A stretch of DNA of 27,705 nucleotides, taken from positions 1-27,705 of IMG/VR virus record IMGVR_UViG_3300030430_000681. One strand, written 5' to 3'. The notes under the pieces were generated by a model. It did not search any database. It was not told the origin of the DNA and saw nothing but the letters and a program-made list of their open reading frames with translations. Position 1 is the first letter of the stretch. Each line of letters starts with the position of its first letter. This document shows positions 12,186 to 25,227 of this stretch, piece after piece. This DNA is from a virus. Position numbers and translations under genes: made by a program.

Positions 12186-12478
12186 GTTGTGCTCACTGTT
12201 ACTGATCCAACTGTTCCTGTGCCTTGAGATCCACGAAGAAAAGCGGAGTGGGTTAAAGGTACTCTAACATAACCATCATGCTGAAATAAAGCCCCCGGTT
12301 CTAATCCGCTGTCATCTGTCTGCAAATCAGTTATAGTTATGTCTGTTGCCCTTACGTCACCTGGGTTTTGAATCTGCTCTAAAAACACAGAAAACGCACG
12401 AATTACCTCTGCGAAATAGGTTCTTTGATATTGATCCGGTGGTATTGGAAAATATGGACGGGATAAACGTCTAGACAT
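12182..12478 (-). CDS. small conserved tail-region protein with C-terminal beta-repeat (98 aa)
   Basis: The N-terminal part (RPYFPIPPDQYQRTYFAEVIRAF, residues 7-29, split here as RPYFPIPPDQYQ and RTYFAEVIRAF) is a helix-containing block that I recall as conserved next to nozzle-like genes in marine phages. A central strand-rich stretch contains LQTDDSGLEPGALFQHDGYV. The last residues, GTGTVGSVTV (86-95), match the repeat unit of the 235-residue repeat protein at 15518-16225 and of the cupredoxin-like protein at 22920. It starts on the stop of the nozzle-like gene (TAATG). Likely a small tail or adaptor accessory. No function is known to me. Confidence 0.7.
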   Translation of the reverse strand: MSRRLSRPYFPIPPDQYQRTYFAEVIRAFSVFLEQIQNPGDVRATDITITDLQTDDSGLEPGALFQHDGYVRVPLTHSAFLRGSQGTGTVGSVTVSTT

Positions 12479-14397
12479 TAACGCCTCCCATCTGGTCTAA
12501 TATCGAGACGAGGCGACCCTAATCTCCAAGTAACACCAAGATCCTCAGATTCAATTTTAAACCTCATTTGTCTACCACGAAGTCGAAAGTATAGTTGCTC
12601 AGTTCTCGCACTAACAGCCGCAGCTTGTGTTTTAACAAAAGTATCTGTCTCTGTTTTAGAATACGTGCCGTCAGGTGCGTTTTTTACATCTAAAGTGATG
12701 TTTACATCCGGAAGCACAGCAGTAGAGTCTCTAAAATCTACGTCTGGAATCATTTTGCGAAGCAACATAAACTGTTCACCGTCACCTATATCCATAGGAC
12801 TTGATTGAATATAGGCATTGATGGCTGTAGTTGGATTAGTTGTACCATCATCAAATCCGATTTCATGCTCATAAATATAACCGTCAGCATTTGCTGCAAA
12901 AGGAAAATCAAAAATACCCCTGTCAATCCATGCAGTTCTACCAAAAGATCCATAATACCAAACCTGTTCCTGATAATTAAAAACAACGTACCTGTTTACT
13001 TCAGAACTATTTGCAGACGGATAATACCACCAGATCTCAGAATGCTCTGTGTTTAAAGCAGCGTTAATTTTGTCTAACTGTTCTTCATTAATATCCGAAA
13101 AAATAAAATCTCTGACTAAGCACGGGAGTCTTTGAACGGCACCACTGTACACATAAAACTCTGCCCGACCCATCCAATACACGTTGTCATCCACCGCTAC
13201 AGCAGCGTTTGGGCCTGCAATTGTTATATTTTCAGATAAAGAGTTTACACCAAATGTAAACGGCGGTCCAAGAAACTGCATTGAATACAGTGTTGTGTCA
13301 GTAAAAACTAGGATCTGTTGTCTGGTTTCAAGAGCAGTGACAATCTCTGAACCAGAACCGAGACGCAACTCTCCTGCTGTGTTGGTTGCTGTGGATGCCC
13401 AGTCGGTTAAAGATTCTTGGGAGGAAAATCGTATAGCCAACGGATCTTGGACACCCGGATTAGCCTCTGTATCACAACCAAATGCTATGATATGTCGGTC
13501 TCGGTCTGATACTAATACTTGTTTTGCAACCGTCGGCGCACTATCAGAGCCTGCCAGAGTTGTTATATCAACCCCTCTTGTAGACAATGTGTTAGTCTCA
13601 TCCCAGTAATATATACCCCCATCTCTCACGTTCATTATAAGGTCTTCACCAAAGTTATCATGCGACCAAAGACGAAGAGTGCTCGTTACGATTGCATCAG
13701 ATGAGGCTGATCCCCATGTTCCTCGGCCCCATGTTCCTGCACCCCACCCTGCACCAGATACACCAATATCAAGTCCTGTATTAATTTGATACGCACCAAC
13801 AACAGAACCTCCACCGTTACCTGTATCAGATCCGTTAGCTGCAACAAGACTCGGATTCAGTTGTCCGTTATATGTTATATCAGATATAGAAGTATCCGCT
13901 GCTCTGGCTTTAATTTTGTAACTACTTGCATTTACAACCTCTGTCACATAATATTCTTGATTGAGAACATTAGCAGTAATTAAGCCACCAAGACTTGCTG
14001 CACCGGAGTATGTTACAAAATCGTTTACAACTGCACCATGATTAGAATGACTAACTGTTAGTTCAGATGACCCATTAGTTGCAGTAAAGGTAATCGCTCC
14101 CGCAGAAGTTGTAAGGCGTAAAGGTGTTACATCGTTATAAAATCCACCCTCATCAATGTAGTATTTGAGATGTGTGCCTACACCCACGTATTGATCTCTA
14201 CTTAAAGAAACCCAAGGATGAAGAGCACGACAAGTACCAAGGAATGAATATGAAGATCTTTTTTGCCAACCACCTATTTTTTCTGGATAGCCCTTTTGAA
14301 ATCTAACATTATCAATATCAAACCAACCGCCCTCGTTAGAGTAGGCGGTTATCTCTCGATTAACACCGGGTTTGAATTGTAGTTTGGACAGAGGCAT
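12478..14397 (-). CDS. tail nozzle / packaged-DNA stabilisation-like protein (P22 gp10 / tail tubular B type)
   Basis: This 639-residue protein begins with KLQFKPGVNREITAYSNEGG (residues 5-24), the strand-rich start of phage nozzle proteins that read 'F.PG..R..T.Y.NEGGW.D...VRF'. The body alternates strand motifs ending in aromatic pairs (RLWSHDNFGEDLI 242-254, GIYYWD 261-266, VYWMGRAEFYVYSG 406-419, NRYVVFNYQEQVWYYGSF 468-485), as in a beta-propeller. About residues 100-170 look like an inserted small beta domain. The C-terminus ends with TWRLGSPRLDIRPDGRR. In podoviruses such proteins form the distal tube that closes the tail and holds packaged DNA. Two adaptor-like genes lie upstream, past the fibre block. 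ATG overlaps the upstream stop (TAATG). The family assignment is by pattern; fold is inferred. Confidence 0.8.
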   Translation of the reverse strand: MPLSKLQFKPGVNREITAYSNEGGWFDIDNVRFQKGYPEKIGGWQKRSSYSFLGTCRALHPWVSLSRDQYVGVGTHLKYYIDEGGFYNDVTPLRLTTSAGAITFTATNGSSELTVSHSNHGAVVNDFVTYSGAASLGGLITANVLNQEYYVTEVVNASSYKIKARAADTSISDITYNGQLNPSLVAANGSDTGNGGGSVVGAYQINTGLDIGVSGAGWGAGTWGRGTWGSASSDAIVTSTLRLWSHDNFGEDLIMNVRDGGIYYWDETNTLSTRGVDITTLAGSDSAPTVAKQVLVSDRDRHIIAFGCDTEANPGVQDPLAIRFSSQESLTDWASTATNTAGELRLGSGSEIVTALETRQQILVFTDTTLYSMQFLGPPFTFGVNSLSENITIAGPNAAVAVDDNVYWMGRAEFYVYSGAVQRLPCLVRDFIFSDINEEQLDKINAALNTEHSEIWWYYPSANSSEVNRYVVFNYQEQVWYYGSFGRTAWIDRGIFDFPFAANADGYIYEHEIGFDDGTTNPTTAINAYIQSSPMDIGDGEQFMLLRKMIPDVDFRDSTAVLPDVNITLDVKNAPDGTYSKTETDTFVKTQAAAVSARTEQLYFRLRGRQMRFKIESEDLGVTWRLGSPRLDIRPDGRR

Positions 14398-18143: not shown

Positions 18144-20147
18144 CTATGCGACTGCGTAGAAAATATATTCAGTGCCACTTGCATTAATATCTGGATTTCC
18201 AGTTGCTATTCCAAAACCCGCAGAATGAGCATTAAAGTTATTAGCAGTTGCACTTTGAGCAGCAGTATCGTTAAATTCAATTTGTGGATCATACCCACCT
18301 GTAGATATGCCTCTTAAAGAATCAATTAAAATCCAAGGGCCACTACTATCAGAGGCTTTAAGTAAAACAAATCTAGCACCACTGCTAAAACCACAGTCAA
18401 TATTTTGTGCCGAACCTGTGCCAGTATAGCCTCCTACTTTTGAAATACCAGGTAAAGTAGCGAATAAATATGCTATTACATCGTCACCTGTATTAAAACC
18501 ACCTGCACCATTACTCAGCATATTAATTTGCGTACTGGTAAAGTTTTTGTGATAACCTTGTTGAGAAGAAGCATTAACATTCCAATCTTGAAATGTATGC
18601 CTAGTGTTTTCATTAGCACTATCCCAATTTGTCATATCTTTGTGAGCAATAAACCAAGAACCATCACCGTTTCCGCTCTGGTTTCTATTTTTACTGATGA
18701 TAAATTCAGGAACAACCCCTAAATTATGATTGATGGTTTGATTGCCAGTTGCATCTACTTTCCACGTAGTTACATCAAAAAATCCAGGTGCGCGTTTCCA
18801 CATCCAACTATAGGTATTAGTACCACCCCAATTCTGATCTATGTGACCGTCCATAAAATCAAAGCCTGCCTCACTTGCATTAGCCTCCGCATTTCTACTA
18901 GTTACTTTTAAATATTTTTCACCCATTAGTCGTGCATAATTAAAAGCACCTCCACCACCACTGCCACCAGAGCCTACTGGTCTTACAAAAGCCATATCAA
19001 CAATATGATTGCTATCAAAATAAGGAGCACTACTGCCTTGAGTATCTATACTGAAAAGCTTAGTCACATCTTCTGGTATAGCTAGTGGGCCTCTGCGTAT
19101 TGCCATGTAAATGTAGTTGCCGCCAGATGCGTTAATTTGAAAAGAAGTTGTTTCAGGCTGAAATCCTGTTGGTGTCGGACTCATATCACGATAATTTTCT
19201 GCATCGGGTAAATTCCAACTGACTTCTGCACTAGCAGTGGTATTAAAATCTCTCATTGAATCATAAACATTCCAGTTTCTACCACTAGCATCGGTGCGTT
19301 TTACCATAAGAAACTGAGGTTCAAACCCAAGATTTAATATTGGCCCAGTAGAAGAACCATTTCCAGTATAACTTCCACATTTAATAACATCTTTATCCTT
19401 ATCAGGCCCGAACTCACCGTCATTGTTGTTATGTGCGAATACGTATAAGACAGTATTCTGGCTATCGTAACCTGCATGAACCCAAGAACCTGGGATTGTT
19501 ATGCTTGTAGAAGATGTGCTAACACCTGTACCTCCAAAGTAACCCTTAGCATCTGTGCTAAAGTCCATAACATAATTACTACCTAAATCTTTATGCCATA
19601 CTATCCAAGCATTAGTATGAGAGTATACCTTGGCAATAATCATCCCAACATCACAGCCTAAATTGTGATTAAGTGTAACAGTGCTAGGTTCAGAACCTGT
19701 TTGGGTATGATTAATTATATCAAAAAATTTAGGGGCCTTCCTCCATGTCCAAGAGACGTATTCGTAAGAACTATAATTTATGCTAGTGAATTGACCATCA
19801 CCAAGAGTAAATCCATTGCTGTTAAAAGATGTTAAATCATCTCCACCTGCATAATGCCCTGCTGTTAAATTTGATGCAAAGTAAGCCCCTGCACCACGTG
19901 CTGTATCAAACAAAGCATGATTTAAATTACCATCTCTACGTTTAATCCAAACAAGCCCACCTTCGCCAGAAAGGTCAATTCCGTTGTTAATAGTTTGTGT
20001 AGTGCCAGAAGAGGCTGAAGCACTATTTCCGTCATATACAAACGTGCTAAACACCTCGTCTACATCAAGACCTGCGCCTGCCGCTGCTGCACCAATGCCG
20101 CCAAAACTTCTGGCTGAAGCTGCACCAAATGTTGAAAGTAAGGGCAT
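18144..20147 (-). CDS. large putative receptor-binding protein built from a duplicated three-domain unit (667 aa)
   Basis: The product shows a repeated domain pattern: a Gly-Phe turn, a strand with K-R/K-N, then W-x-(V/I)-x-D/H-(S/K)-(L/M/D)-(R/D)-G. Six copies can be placed at about 60-140, 156-240, 254-352, 372-458, 468-566 and 570-667. Copies 1 and 4 end alike (VSWTWRKAPKFFD / YSWMWKRAPGFFD), copies 2 and 5 begin alike (TLNHNLG / TINHNLG, both with a later HKD), and copies 3 and 6 begin with GSYTGNGS / GGYTGTGS. So the protein is a tandem duplication of a three-domain block. I recall this domain type as a phage-specific family of unknown function (DUF7483-like). It lies among fibre genes, so adhesion is the likely role. 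AAGGA sits six bases before ATG. Confidence 0.78.
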   Translation of the reverse strand: MPLLSTFGAASARSFGGIGAAAAGAGLDVDEVFSTFVYDGNSASASSGTTQTINNGIDLSGEGGLVWIKRRDGNLNHALFDTARGAGAYFASNLTAGHYAGGDDLTSFNSNGFTLGDGQFTSINYSSYEYVSWTWRKAPKFFDIINHTQTGSEPSTVTLNHNLGCDVGMIIAKVYSHTNAWIVWHKDLGSNYVMDFSTDAKGYFGGTGVSTSSTSITIPGSWVHAGYDSQNTVLYVFAHNNNDGEFGPDKDKDVIKCGSYTGNGSSTGPILNLGFEPQFLMVKRTDASGRNWNVYDSMRDFNTTASAEVSWNLPDAENYRDMSPTPTGFQPETTSFQINASGGNYIYMAIRRGPLAIPEDVTKLFSIDTQGSSAPYFDSNHIVDMAFVRPVGSGGSGGGGAFNYARLMGEKYLKVTSRNAEANASEAGFDFMDGHIDQNWGGTNTYSWMWKRAPGFFDVTTWKVDATGNQTINHNLGVVPEFIISKNRNQSGNGDGSWFIAHKDMTNWDSANENTRHTFQDWNVNASSQQGYHKNFTSTQINMLSNGAGGFNTGDDVIAYLFATLPGISKVGGYTGTGSAQNIDCGFSSGARFVLLKASDSSGPWILIDSLRGISTGGYDPQIEFNDTAAQSATANNFNAHSAGFGIATGNPDINASGTEYIFYAVA

Positions 20148-21976: not shown

Positions 21977-22273
21977 TTACATTCTCCTTATAAGCTCGGC
22001 TAGTTCAGGATGACCTGCGTCCTTGAGGGCATTATACACAGATGTACGGTCACTGTGAATAGCTTGTCTCATGTAGTAGGCCACCAGTTTCTCCAGATGC
22101 TTAGAGAAGGCATTAGCCTGATCCCTTATTACTGGATGCGCTGAATCCGATACAGATATGATCTTCTGTACACACTGTTCGGATAATTCATCAGGGGTTA
22201 GACCCCGGTTATGAGTTGTGTTTATCTGTACCAGAGATTCATCTTTAGGTACGCTTACATCTATTTTAAACAT
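21977..22273 (-). CDS. small helical protein of unknown function (98 aa)
   Basis: I do not recognise a characterised family. The protein has an N-terminal strand region (FKIDVSVP), then charged helices (LTPDELSEQCVQKIISV, KHLEKLVAYYMRQAI) and a C-terminal helix ending ELAELIRRM. I start it at the ATG at 22273, which overlaps the upstream TGA as TGATG and has GGGAGA seven bases before it; a TTG one codon earlier is possible but weaker. It is coupled to the adaptor-like gene upstream, so it may be an assembly factor or chaperone for fibre or adaptor proteins, as small helical genes beside fibres often are. That is inference only. Confidence 0.7.
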   Translation of the reverse strand: MFKIDVSVPKDESLVQINTTHNRGLTPDELSEQCVQKIISVSDSAHPVIRDQANAFSKHLEKLVAYYMRQAIHSDRTSVYNALKDAGHPELAELIRRM

Positions 22274-22923
22274 CAAGTCTTCTCCCTAAGAACTTTTCCT
22301 CGACGATACTCATCAGTAGTTTCTTTTGCTTCGCCAAGCATTTTAATACCAATTAGAGATTCTTGGAAGCGTTTGTTGTACATTGCCATGACATCTTGTT
22401 CACCCTTCATGTAAATATATGCCTCAATAAGTGCTCCATATAACAAAGCCATTTCAGCATTTTCACTTAACCATGTTGTTGAACTATCGGATAATTCTGT
22501 AATACTTTGCGGTCTATAGAAATAATGAAGCTCTGCGGTAAACGCCGCATTTGGCGTAGGTGCTAATAAAAAGTTATCAACATCAAACACACAGTAATAT
22601 CTTGGTGATCCCGTTGTAGTCGGATCTGGTGTATACTCCTGCACAAAACTAGGATCTTTGAAATCTAAAAAAAATTTGTCCCCATCAGTTCCCGTCATGC
22701 TCATAGAAAAGGGTGCTAAGAAATCTGAGGGAACTTTTATATATTGAACAGAAGCACTTGTTTGTGCGTTTGCATTTTTACGAAACAAACTGAGTTGTAC
22801 GTTTTTAAGAATACGCTCTTCAGATAAACGAATAAACAATGGTATGTTGTTTACAAAGCTTGTTTCCTCATACTCGGTGTAGGCTTTTATAGCATCTTTA
22901 AGTTGTAAATATGTAAAGCTCAT
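22273..22923 (-). CDS. head-tail adaptor-like protein (216 aa)
   Basis: The pattern is that of phage adaptor proteins: an N-terminal helix pair with aromatic residues (SFTYLQLKDAIKAYTEYEET, 2-21), a core of strands with FLAPFSMSMTG, a Pro-rich turn with the YYCVFD strand, and a C-terminal helix bundle (MALLYGALIEAYIYMKGEQD, then MAMYNKRFQESLIGIKMLGE). The phrase L.YGAL.EA..YMKGE....Y..RF is one I associate with SU10-type adaptors and related connector proteins. Adaptors sit as a ring between portal and tail tube. The gene overlaps its upstream neighbour by four bases (ATGA). A second protein of related layout lies at 23711. Which of the two contacts the portal is not visible. Confidence 0.78.
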   Translation of the reverse strand: MSFTYLQLKDAIKAYTEYEETSFVNNIPLFIRLSEERILKNVQLSLFRKNANAQTSASVQYIKVPSDFLAPFSMSMTGTDGDKFFLDFKDPSFVQEYTPDPTTTGSPRYYCVFDVDNFLLAPTPNAAFTAELHYFYRPQSITELSDSSTTWLSENAEMALLYGALIEAYIYMKGEQDVMAMYNKRFQESLIGIKMLGEAKETTDEYRRGKVLREKT

Positions 22924-23711
22924 GTCGTGTTAATTTGACCTCCCATGCCTGAGTGGTATTGACAATAGTAGTACAAGGTCGGCGCACCAACAGCTACTGT
23001 AATTGTAGATGTATACGCTCCTGTATTAATTGTCACTCCTGTTGTGTATTCCGATCCACCACCATGCGTTCCATCCGATGTGGTTGAAAAACGAAGAGGA
23101 TGCCCTGTAGCTGCTGACCAATTGAAGACATACGTGCTACCTTCAGACAAGTTAAGTGTAGGTTGTAAAGCACCATCAATATAGTATTTATTTCCTGACC
23201 CCGGATTAGCCACAGTGACAGTATAGACAGTATCTCCTGTTACCGTTGGAGAGCCTACGGCTGAAGTTCCCGCAGAACCTGTGGGATTAACTGTAACGTC
23301 TGCATCTCCTGTTGTGCTTATAGTAACAGATCCCATAAGAGCGTTTGCAGTGACACCAGATGGTGTAATGTCATCATTACCGGAGTCTGATGTAGTTATC
23401 GATACAGTTCCTACTTCTCCATCTGCAACAAGATTATTTGCAGGAGTTATCCCTGGAACGTCTCTAAAACCAACAGGATTGTATCCATGTTGTATAGATC
23501 GTTGCTCTGTCAGTTCACTCTCTGGACGAGGATCGCGTAGTGCTTGTGGGTCTGGAAACGCTCTCGGTGGAAACAACTGCGGATGCTTTGGCTCAAACTC
23601 ATCAGGACCAACCTTTGCGCCAGTCCACTCTGTCCTCATCTCACGAAGACGGTAACGGCGACCTGACCGATCCGATATACCATAAGCATGTTTACCACTA
23701 GCGTATGCCAT
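22920..23711 (-). CDS. tail-region protein with cupredoxin-like C-terminal domain (263 aa)
   Basis: Three parts are visible. Residues 1-90 form a charged conserved block (GKHAYGISDRSGRRYRLREM, 6-25; then EPKHPQLFPPRAFPDPQALR). Residues 95-160 hold about three copies of a short beta-repeat (GEVGTVSITT, NALMGSVTIS) shared with the repeat protein at 15518. Residues 172-260 resemble a cupredoxin: YYIDGALQPTLNLSEGSTY, then TGHPLRF with His204, and near the end YYYCQYHSGMGG with Cys250, His253 and Met256. His, Cys, His and Met are the four ligands of type-1 copper. Copper binding is inferred and unproven. The start is ATG at 23711, overlapping the TGA of the adaptor-like gene (TGATG) with GAGGG before it; GTG one codon upstream is the alternative. 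Probably a minor tail or adhesin component. Confidence 0.78.
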   Translation of the reverse strand: MAYASGKHAYGISDRSGRRYRLREMRTEWTGAKVGPDEFEPKHPQLFPPRAFPDPQALRDPRPESELTEQRSIQHGYNPVGFRDVPGITPANNLVADGEVGTVSITTSDSGNDDITPSGVTANALMGSVTISTTGDADVTVNPTGSAGTSAVGSPTVTGDTVYTVTVANPGSGNKYYIDGALQPTLNLSEGSTYVFNWSAATGHPLRFSTTSDGTHGGGSEYTTGVTINTGAYTSTITVAVGAPTLYYYCQYHSGMGGQINTT

Positions 23712-24376
23712 CACACCCTCAGATAACTCAAACTAGGCTGCAACTTCAAAGGTGTTCGACCTTGATCCTCATCCGCTGCACGTTGGAACTCTTCTTCGTA
23801 TACTGACTTCAACATCTGTATGCGATCTGGTGCTCGTTTCATTGCCATGTAATAAGCTAGCCCCGCCACCATACAAGGATAAAAACGAAAAGGCATGTCA
23901 GTAGTATTAACAAAAGCGTCAGCATCTTCTATCCTTCGTACATAATAGTAACGTACCTGATCCGTAGAGTTTTCAGGAGTAGACCACAAGTACATTACAG
24001 GGGTAATCTGTCGATCCAAGAAAAATTGACTCGGTCTACCCTGCGTAGATTTATTTGGAAGCGTTGCATAATCGCCACGACTAATTCGTTGAAGCTCGTA
24101 GTCTGTACCACTTCTACGAATAACTACGTCTAAAACATCAACAATATCCGCAGCTAAGGAGTACTCTGATGTGCCTTGTGTAACTGTAAAGTTTGCTTCT
24201 TTAACAGTCCACAAGTTAAGTCCACGGTTAGCCCAGTCAGCAAACATCAGGTTCATAGACCTACGTGCCGTTTTAGCATCATAGCCTGTGCGAACCTCTA
24301 ATCCGCATCTTTCGTATGCTTCTTCAATTACCTCTGCCACATCGAGGTTAAAGTCTCTTGATCCTGATGTTGTCAT
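23711..24376 (-). CDS. head-tail adaptor/tail tubular A-like protein (221 aa)
   Basis: The N-terminal helices (AEVIEEAYERCGLEVRTGYD, 14-33; then KTARRSMNLMFADWANRGLN) have the layout of gp4/gp11-type connector proteins, in which two helices precede a beta core (NFTVTQGTSEYSLAADIVDV). The C-terminal part has the strand QVRYYYVRRIEDA and a helix bundle (FYPCMVAGLAYYMAMKRAPD) like those of adaptors. This family closes the portal and receives the tail tube. With the 216-residue protein it makes a pair of adaptor-type genes flanking the cupredoxin-like gene. The RBS is weak (GAGTTGATGCT before ATG) and the gene begins five bases after the stop of the tiny upstream gene, so coupling is likely. Assignment by fold pattern. 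Confidence 0.78.
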   Translation of the reverse strand: MTTSGSRDFNLDVAEVIEEAYERCGLEVRTGYDAKTARRSMNLMFADWANRGLNLWTVKEANFTVTQGTSEYSLAADIVDVLDVVIRRSGTDYELQRISRGDYATLPNKSTQGRPSQFFLDRQITPVMYLWSTPENSTDQVRYYYVRRIEDADAFVNTTDMPFRFYPCMVAGLAYYMAMKRAPDRIQMLKSVYEEEFQRAADEDQGRTPLKLQPSLSYLRV

Positions 24377-24380
24377 AGCA

Positions 24381-24548
24381 TCAACTCATATGTGGTTTCT
24401 GATTAGTTTTAATCATAACGCAACCGCCTTTTTTAAAACCTTTAACCATACCGCCTTTTTTCATGTAACCCATTTTTTTAACTGTTTCAGGGCTTTCTTT
24501 TTTTAAAGCAGCTAAACCTGGTTGCGTTTCAGGATTAATCTTCTTCAT
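24381..24548 (-). CDS. tiny Lys/Gly-rich protein with two GG motifs (55 aa)
   Basis: I start this at the ATG at 24548, where AGGAGG stands six bases upstream; a longer version would lack such a site and would overlap the upstream gene more. The product begins MKKINPETQPGLAALKKESP and then carries GYMKKGGMVKGFKKGGCVM (27-45), two copies of the K-G-G-x-V motif that recurs in the Lys-rich proteins nearby. It overlaps the end of the His-rich 230-residue gene by 14 bases. Function unknown; size, charge and motif place it with the small basic proteins at 25233-26942. It may bind DNA or be a virion-associated peptide, but neither is shown. Confidence 0.68.
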   Translation of the reverse strand: MKKINPETQPGLAALKKESPETVKKMGYMKKGGMVKGFKKGGCVMIKTNQKPHMS

Positions 24549-25227
24549 CGTTATCCTCCTGATTATAAAGATTATCAAATATTCTATTCACATCTAGTGT
24601 ATAGTCTAAATCACTTTTTGAATAGTGTATATGTTGTGAGGGTCTAAAGTCTGGAGCACCCTCACCCACTGCAAACCAAGCAGGATGTGTAACCCTGACT
24701 CGATTATTTGGTAACGCCACTATGTTTCCTGTCCACTCTCCTGCATCCAACAACTGCATTACATGGCTTTGTTTGTGTTGTGCTGGATCATCTGCGATCT
24801 CACTGTCAGTGTAGTCTACAGTGAATAAATACTTGGCGGGAAACATCTCGCCGTTTATTTTAGCTAACCACGGACATGGTGTAGCTCTGTCTAATGTATA
24901 TACTGCATGATGATGTGAAGAGCAGTCCCAAGGCTGCGCATCATGTGTTGCCATAGGTTCAGGCCACTCTTCGAGCGGGATGTCTGCAACCAGTGCTGTG
25001 ATAGGCATTCTTGCCCACATTGCACCACCATGAACGGTATCTTCTTCTTCATCTTCTGCTTCACAACCAGTAAAGATAACTTGAAAGCTAAGAGACCGAT
25101 TTGGAATTGTAGTTACAGCAACAACCATGGCATGTAAAAATTCGCCGTGATACTTCTCATGATTGTGAGTGTATTCACGACGAACCCATGCTTTGAAGTA
25201 AGGGATGTTACTTTGTAGGTAAGGCAT
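24535..25227 (-). CDS. conserved His-rich protein of unknown function (230 aa)
   Basis: I do not know a characterised family, but the sequence resembles a conserved protein I recall from marine phages including cyanophages and pelagiphages. It starts MPYLQSNIPYFKAWVRREYT and has 14 histidines, with clusters at 21-32 (HNHEKYHGEFLH) and 105-107 (HHH). Cysteines lie at 55, 102 and 118, and there are several Trp (AMWARMP, DAQPWDC, ATPCPW, AGEWTG, HPAWF). Unlike its neighbours it is acidic, ends in an Asp/Glu run, and looks like a globular beta-rich protein with a possible metal site. It lies between the Lys-rich cluster and the adaptor genes, six bases after the repeat-protein gene. A virion or assembly role is possible; enzymatic activity cannot be excluded. 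Confidence 0.75.
   Translation of the reverse strand: MPYLQSNIPYFKAWVRREYTHNHEKYHGEFLHAMVVAVTTIPNRSLSFQVIFTGCEAEDEEEDTVHGGAMWARMPITALVADIPLEEWPEPMATHDAQPWDCSSHHHAVYTLDRATPCPWLAKINGEMFPAKYLFTVDYTDSEIADDPAQHKQSHVMQLLDAGEWTGNIVALPNNRVRVTHPAWFAVGEGAPDFRPSQHIHYSKSDLDYTLDVNRIFDNLYNQEDNDEED
24549..24560 (-). promoter_or_regulatory. strong ribosome binding site fixing the start of the 55-aa gene
   Basis: On the minus strand AGGAGG (24560-24555) is followed by six bases and ATG at 24548. It lies inside the 3' end of the upstream His-rich gene. This decides for the 55-residue start over the longer reading. Confidence 0.75.

Follow-up and report, generated by a model that had tools for sequence, protein, structure and literature searches.

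A cupredoxin-like domain with a conserved, predicted type-1 copper site in a structural gene of a short-tailed phage

In amicyanin, the copper ion is held by His53, Cys92, His95 and Met98 (PMC12723479), and the blue-copper signature PROSITE PS00196 takes the form [GA]-x(0,2)-[YSA]-x(0,1)-[VFY]-x-C-x(1,2)-[PG]-x(0,1)-H-x(2,4)-[MQ] (PMC517927). Among phages, the plastocyanin gene petE occurs as an auxiliary metabolic gene in cyanophages (PMC3037559), and HxH motifs that bind iron have been proposed for the tail fibres of phages, marine ones included (T4 gp37 and Alteromonas phage R22Y; PMC11705849). In phage SU10, the connection between portal and nozzle is made by a dodecamer of the adaptor, which also keeps the long tail fibres in place (PMC9509320). 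The literature searched, which comprised open-access papers only, contained no account of a cupredoxin in a virion. To our knowledge, phage structural proteins are not generally regarded as copper proteins.

The locus described here lies in a 27,705-nucleotide stretch of DNA from an uncultivated marine phage (IMG/VR record IMGVR_UViG_3300030430_000681, positions 1 to 27,705), referred to below as the window, and comprises the following features.

23711..24376, minus strand: upstream neighbour, SU10_adaptor family head-tail adaptor (PF24175, E 1.2e-15)
22920..23711, minus strand: whole gene, 263 amino acids from ATG (open reading frame and translation)
23514..23711, minus strand: residues 1-66, conserved N-terminal domain, zinc-ribbon-like without Cys, presumed virion anchor (phrog_28581, E 4e-14; relatives with CDxCG and CPxC)
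23238..23513, minus strand: residues 67-158, Gly/Ser/Thr-rich linker with short TSAVGSxTV-like repeats (sequence; whole-protein model)
22923..23237, minus strand: residues 159-263, cupredoxin-like domain of about 105 residues (AlphaFold2 pLDDT 93.4; cupredoxin matches by Foldseek and VIA-align; PF00127 in 12 of 45 relatives)
23100..23102, minus strand: His204 codon, predicted copper ligand (invariant in 71 of 71 representatives)
22962..22964, minus strand: Cys250 codon, predicted copper ligand and the protein's sole Cys (invariant in 71 of 71)
22953..22955, minus strand: His253 codon, predicted copper ligand (invariant in 71 of 71)
22944..22946, minus strand: Met256 codon, predicted axial copper ligand (invariant in 71 of 71)
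22273..22923, minus strand: downstream neighbour, second SU10_adaptor family protein (PF24175, E 2.1e-23)

The gene runs from an ATG at 23711 to a stop at 22920 and overlaps both neighbouring genes by a few bases each. An in-frame GTG at 23714 forms the mechanical start of the open reading frame, but the adjacent ATG, which overlaps the stop of the upstream gene (TGATG), is the likelier start and yields the residue numbering of the original prediction, in which His204, Cys250, His253 and Met256 had been identified in type-1 order; all four are present at those positions, in the minus-strand motifs TGHPLRF (H204) and YYCQYHSGMGG (C250, H253, M256). The interval first assigned to the domain, 22920-23183, does contain the ligands but misses one or more initial strands, as the domain begins near residue 159 (about 23237). 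In the whole-protein model only the two end domains are confidently predicted, with pLDDT below 50 across residues 44-158, and the linker repeats have similar counterparts in relatives.

With the protein at 12478-14397 and the downstream adaptor as yardsticks, the nearest named phages include DSL-LC04, Roseobacter phages CRP-901 and CRP-902, and Pelagibacter phages HTVC027P and HTVC023P. A conserved anchor gene lies between the two adaptor genes in an order shared with HTVC027P and its neighbours, as expected for a virion structural protein of an SU10/HTVC023P-like short-tailed phage. The earlier description of the product as a tail-region protein thus stands in so far as the gene belongs to the structural genes of a short-tailed phage, but its position between two SU10_adaptor genes is that of a neck or adaptor cluster and not of tail-knob genes. 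Beside the adaptor genes, the protein encoded at 24535-25227 (minus strand) matches phrog_3704, labelled ‘ferredoxin’, at E 2e-27, which is probably a problem with the label. Elsewhere in the window, a DUF7483 fibre-like protein at 18144-20147 (minus strand) is free of the copper domain, which is present in related fibre proteins at two other loci (L190 and L055).

The C-terminal domain was modelled with AlphaFold2 from an alignment of 44 phage and bacterial relatives, giving a mean pLDDT of 93.4 and nine strands, in keeping with the Greek-key beta-sandwich of eight or nine strands that defines the cupredoxin superfamily. The top solved structures in Foldseek were rusticyanin, the Hyphomicrobium three-domain nitrite reductase, multicopper oxidases, amicyanin and plastocyanin, with a best E of 5e-4 for rusticyanin and the N-terminal cupredoxin domain of the nitrite reductase. 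VIA-align ranked the nitrite reductase highest (Z 9.5, 2.4 angstrom across 92 residues), followed by rusticyanin (Z about 8 to 8.8) and then by laccases, a Nitrosopumilus cupredoxin and plastocyanin. These matches to solved cupredoxins bear out the fold that had been proposed, and the domain almost certainly adopts it, as judged from the model.

Sequence evidence is weaker than structural evidence and points in the same direction. The window domain scored 15.7 bits (E 0.02) against PF00127 (Copper-bind), below the curated cut-off of 21.2 bits, and the relatives that matched this family did so at E up to 1, with a best value of 3e-5. The NCBIfam amicyanin model TIGR02657 did not recognise the window domain at an E threshold of 1 and matched two relatives only (best E 0.007); plastocyanin and amicyanin profile models recognise a few relatives. 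Alignment of profiles against three cupredoxins with hhalign gave a pairwise E of 1.5e-4 with a probability of only 52, and placed the first His, the Cys and the second His in alignment; HMMER and hhalign agreed in setting these three residues in register with plastocyanin and amicyanin. Profile searches returned marginal matches to plastocyanin, copper oxidase and nitrite reductase, mixed with unrelated proteins, and a single-sequence phmmer search of the PDB returned none.

The four residues occur in the type-1 order H...C-x2-H-x(2-4)-M, invariant in 71 representatives, and in the domain model the Cys (model residue 99) closes the penultimate strand while the Met (105) immediately precedes the last, an arrangement shared with cupredoxins. 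The Met is followed by seven C-terminal residues, the same number as in amicyanin and spinach plastocyanin. The C-x2-H-x2-M spacing had been remarked on as shorter than that of plastocyanin, which is correct, but it is no anomaly since the spacing in amicyanin is identical (C92, H95, M98; PMC12723479). Two departures from classical blue copper proteins were found, namely an HP pair at the first His where those proteins have HN, and a Cys-His interval that contains neither Pro nor Gly. Because of the latter, none of the 139 family domains matches PS00196, whereas amicyanin and plastocyanin controls both do. A chance motif was ruled out, since H-x(28-90)-C-x2-H-x2-M arose in 2 of 20,000 shuffles of the protein and the residues are strictly conserved. 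Retention of the Cys for an intra-domain disulfide was likewise ruled out by the presence of exactly one Cys in 137 of 139 domains, and a c-type heme or iron-sulfur site by the lack of any CxxCH or Cys cluster in the protein. Taken from sequence and model, the predicted site likely binds metal, and the metal is probably copper.

Conservation was assessed in a set assembled from scans with patterns that were ligand-free, or mostly so (five of six patterns), together with tblastn matches in named phages; the use of ligand-free patterns avoids circularity, and homologues from genome collections and further loci found with ligand-containing patterns were left out of the count. Among 139 distinct full-span domains, 137 retain all four ligands, and the frequent loss of Cys or His that would have spoken against a metal site was not seen. 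One of the two exceptions (L244) is truncated by the contig end, leaving a single real variant (L200) among 138 complete domains. In 71 representatives at below 85% identity, which do not include this variant, the four ligands are invariant, and the highest conservation among the other fully covered columns is 97%. Synonymous codons vary freely at both His and at the Cys, so that selection acts on the protein, and the four ligands appear to be kept under strong purifying selection. In the variant L200 (ORF frame + 0, residues 137-240) the first His is replaced by Asp and the Met by Leu, with the Cys and second His retained, so that this naturally occurring form offers a test of whether the domain depends on metal. 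In cyanophages Syn1, S-CAM4 and S-H9-1, large structural proteins (L087, L174 and L178) each contain one extra, decayed copy of the domain in which the copper ligands have been lost, indicating that ligand loss is possible while another copy remains.

The N-terminal anchor is common to HTVC027P, HTVC023P, CRP-902, DSL-LC04 and 023Pt_psg01. The orthologues in the first four of these carry the anchor and lack the copper domain, which 023Pt_psg01 instead has as an N-terminal fusion to the upstream adaptor; the domain therefore behaves as an added surface module. Among open reading frames on viral contigs that contain the copper domain, 82 have the anchor and 92 do not, several of the latter being fibre-like, and the isolate annotations of domain carriers are virion structural or tail fibre proteins. 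Cultivated relatives with the domain include Pelagibacter phages HTVC028P and EXVC032P Baldr and cyanophage S-TIM5. No virion proteome naming the domain or the product of the containing gene was found in the open-access literature searched. The anchor itself (23514-23711) aligns with four-Cys zinc ribbon phage proteins (CDxCG...CPxC), but the Cys residues are gone in the window (SDRSG...GPDEFE) and in most relatives; the anchor thus seems to have lost its zinc site while the domain persisted.

Outside phages, the domain occurs in marine bacterial and archaeal assemblies, including SAR86, Flavobacteria, other Gammaproteobacteria and metagenome-assembled genomes labelled Euryarchaeota, although part of these matches, such as those in Pelagibacter, may be phage sequence. 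By inspection only, several cellular-looking carriers have a lipoprotein-like signal followed by poly-Gly, cadherin-like repeats, metallopeptidase-like HExxH motifs or a terminal membrane anchor. Four of the exported-looking marine bacterial proteins (L127, L131, L145 and L164) combine the domain with metallopeptidase-like HExxH regions, a lipoprotein signal or a C-terminal membrane anchor. No plasmid-borne relatives were found. Small beta-sandwich proteins of pithovirus-like and marseillevirus-like giant viruses (BFVD A0A481Z6J5, A0A481YVH3 and A0A481Z7Q7) also match the domain model, with a TM-score of about 0.7. The cellular carriers fit an exported cell-surface module common to bacteria and phages, and the copper-type domain is a swappable module, present also on phage fibres and exported bacterial proteins.

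The best reading of these observations, to which we give about even chances, is a copper-locked beta-sandwich that serves as a display or adhesion module near the virion neck. The protein would be a virion component, with its zinc-ribbon-like N-terminus anchored near the head-tail adaptor, as gene position and conservation suggest, and its flexible Gly/Ser/Thr-rich linker would present the cupredoxin domain outward. One copper ion would be bound by His204, Cys250, His253 and Met256 in an amicyanin-like loop. Free copper in the cytoplasm is very low, for which reason the ion would be acquired after lysis, in seawater or at a cell surface. Bound copper would then lock the small beta-sandwich rigid, giving a display module that aids adhesion to cells or surfaces, a role consistent with the presence of related domains on exported bacterial proteins. 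We infer copper as the metal, the virion location and the adhesion role alike, the last from location and company only.

A metal-free domain, in which a cupredoxin-derived beta-sandwich acts as a spacer and the ligands are kept for packing only, is unlikely. Such a relic could account for the ligand-less second copies in the structural proteins of Syn1, S-CAM4 and S-H9-1 and for the variant that keeps Cys and His with the other two ligands lost, but ligand loss is nearly confined to extra copies, and no other fully covered column is as well conserved as the ligands, a distinction that packing by itself would not be expected to produce. The roles put forward in the original prediction (stabilising a tail knob, sensing the periplasm, or a relic fold used for structure) are candidate roles, and a functionless relic is disfavoured by strict ligand conservation, despite the degenerate second copies in cyanomyoviruses. 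It is unlikely that the same fold and ligands hold another metal such as zinc, or a mixture, in a purely structural role: the His, Cys, His, Met order and the fold are those of the type-1 copper set, and an invariant Met would be unexpected for zinc, even though sequence alone cannot determine the identity of the metal and the protein is synthesised in the cytoplasm, a compartment in which zinc is much easier to come by than copper.

Two further readings give the copper a part in infection itself. Displayed copper might let the phage dock on an outer-membrane receptor of the host, one for copper uptake or another, as a copper analogue of the iron Trojan or Ferrojan horse, but this is improbable, since we know of no copper receptor that acts as a phage receptor in these hosts, a type-1 site usually holds its copper tightly and mostly buried and would make a poor bait, and the domain also serves non-phage cell-surface proteins. 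Such bait would have a precedent in the iron-binding HxH motifs proposed for marine phage tail fibres (PMC11705849), and it would suit the finding that in many marine phages the neck and fibre proteins carry conserved metal ligands. A redox or sensing role is highly improbable, in which the copper centre would pass electrons to or from the host envelope, or monitor the redox state of that envelope, and take part in triggering tail opening or genome release; the complete ligand set, axial Met included, resembles that of electron-carrying cupredoxins and is strictly conserved throughout, yet no redox partner gene was seen adjoining, related phages whose orthologous genes lack the domain infect well, and a floppy linker is ill suited to mechanical triggering. 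In its broadest form, the idea that many marine phage virions carry functional type-1 copper on neck or fibre proteins, with redox switching or metal exchange aiding attachment or the triggering of genome release, is unlikely.

Ligand retention is near-universal in the marine phage relatives examined and suggests that copper, or another metal, is carried by many virus particles in the sea. If abundant marine phage virions do hold copper, viruses would join the oceanic pool of copper-binding ligands, in parallel with the proposal for iron-binding fibres, and the part played by copper in adsorption would become a directly testable question. An annotation would also follow for a frequent ‘hypothetical’ domain, seen in marine phages and in exported proteins of marine bacteria, to which Pfam and PHROGs give a weak name or none.

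Amicyanin of Paracoccus denitrificans (TIGR02657; PDB 1aac) resembles the window domain in predicted fold, ligand order, C-x2-H-x2-M spacing and the seven residues after the Met. It differs in that identity in structure alignments is about 15-20%, the window domain fails the curated amicyanin cut-off, has no Pro in the Cys-His loop and has Pro instead of Asn after the first His; amicyanin is also a periplasmic electron carrier, whereas the window domain is part of a phage structural protein. Among solved structures the best matches, at low identity, are rusticyanin and the N-terminal cupredoxin domain of the Hyphomicrobium nitrite reductase, and unlike the window protein they are redox carriers or enzymes; the copper-ligand loop of rusticyanin is longer. 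Plastocyanin shares the fold and, by HMM alignment, the first His, Cys and second His, but has a C-x2-H-x4-M spacing, and cyanophage petE is a separate soluble photosynthesis gene, unlike a domain within a structural protein. The iron-binding HxH fibres are alike in that conserved metal ligands are proposed for marine phage surface proteins, and differ in that paired His residues bind iron in a trimeric fibre, in place of the single-chain, predicted type-1 copper site here. The virion structural protein H6WFV3 of cyanophage S-TIM5 shares the domain (BFVD TM-score 0.90, 55% identity, ligands identical), and similar domains with shared ligands occur in phages of Kyanoviridae, Pelagibacter and Methylophilales; the carriers there are baseplate, fibre and large structural proteins and not an anchor gene between two adaptors. 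The fold family is known, and what is new is this variant and its unusual location.
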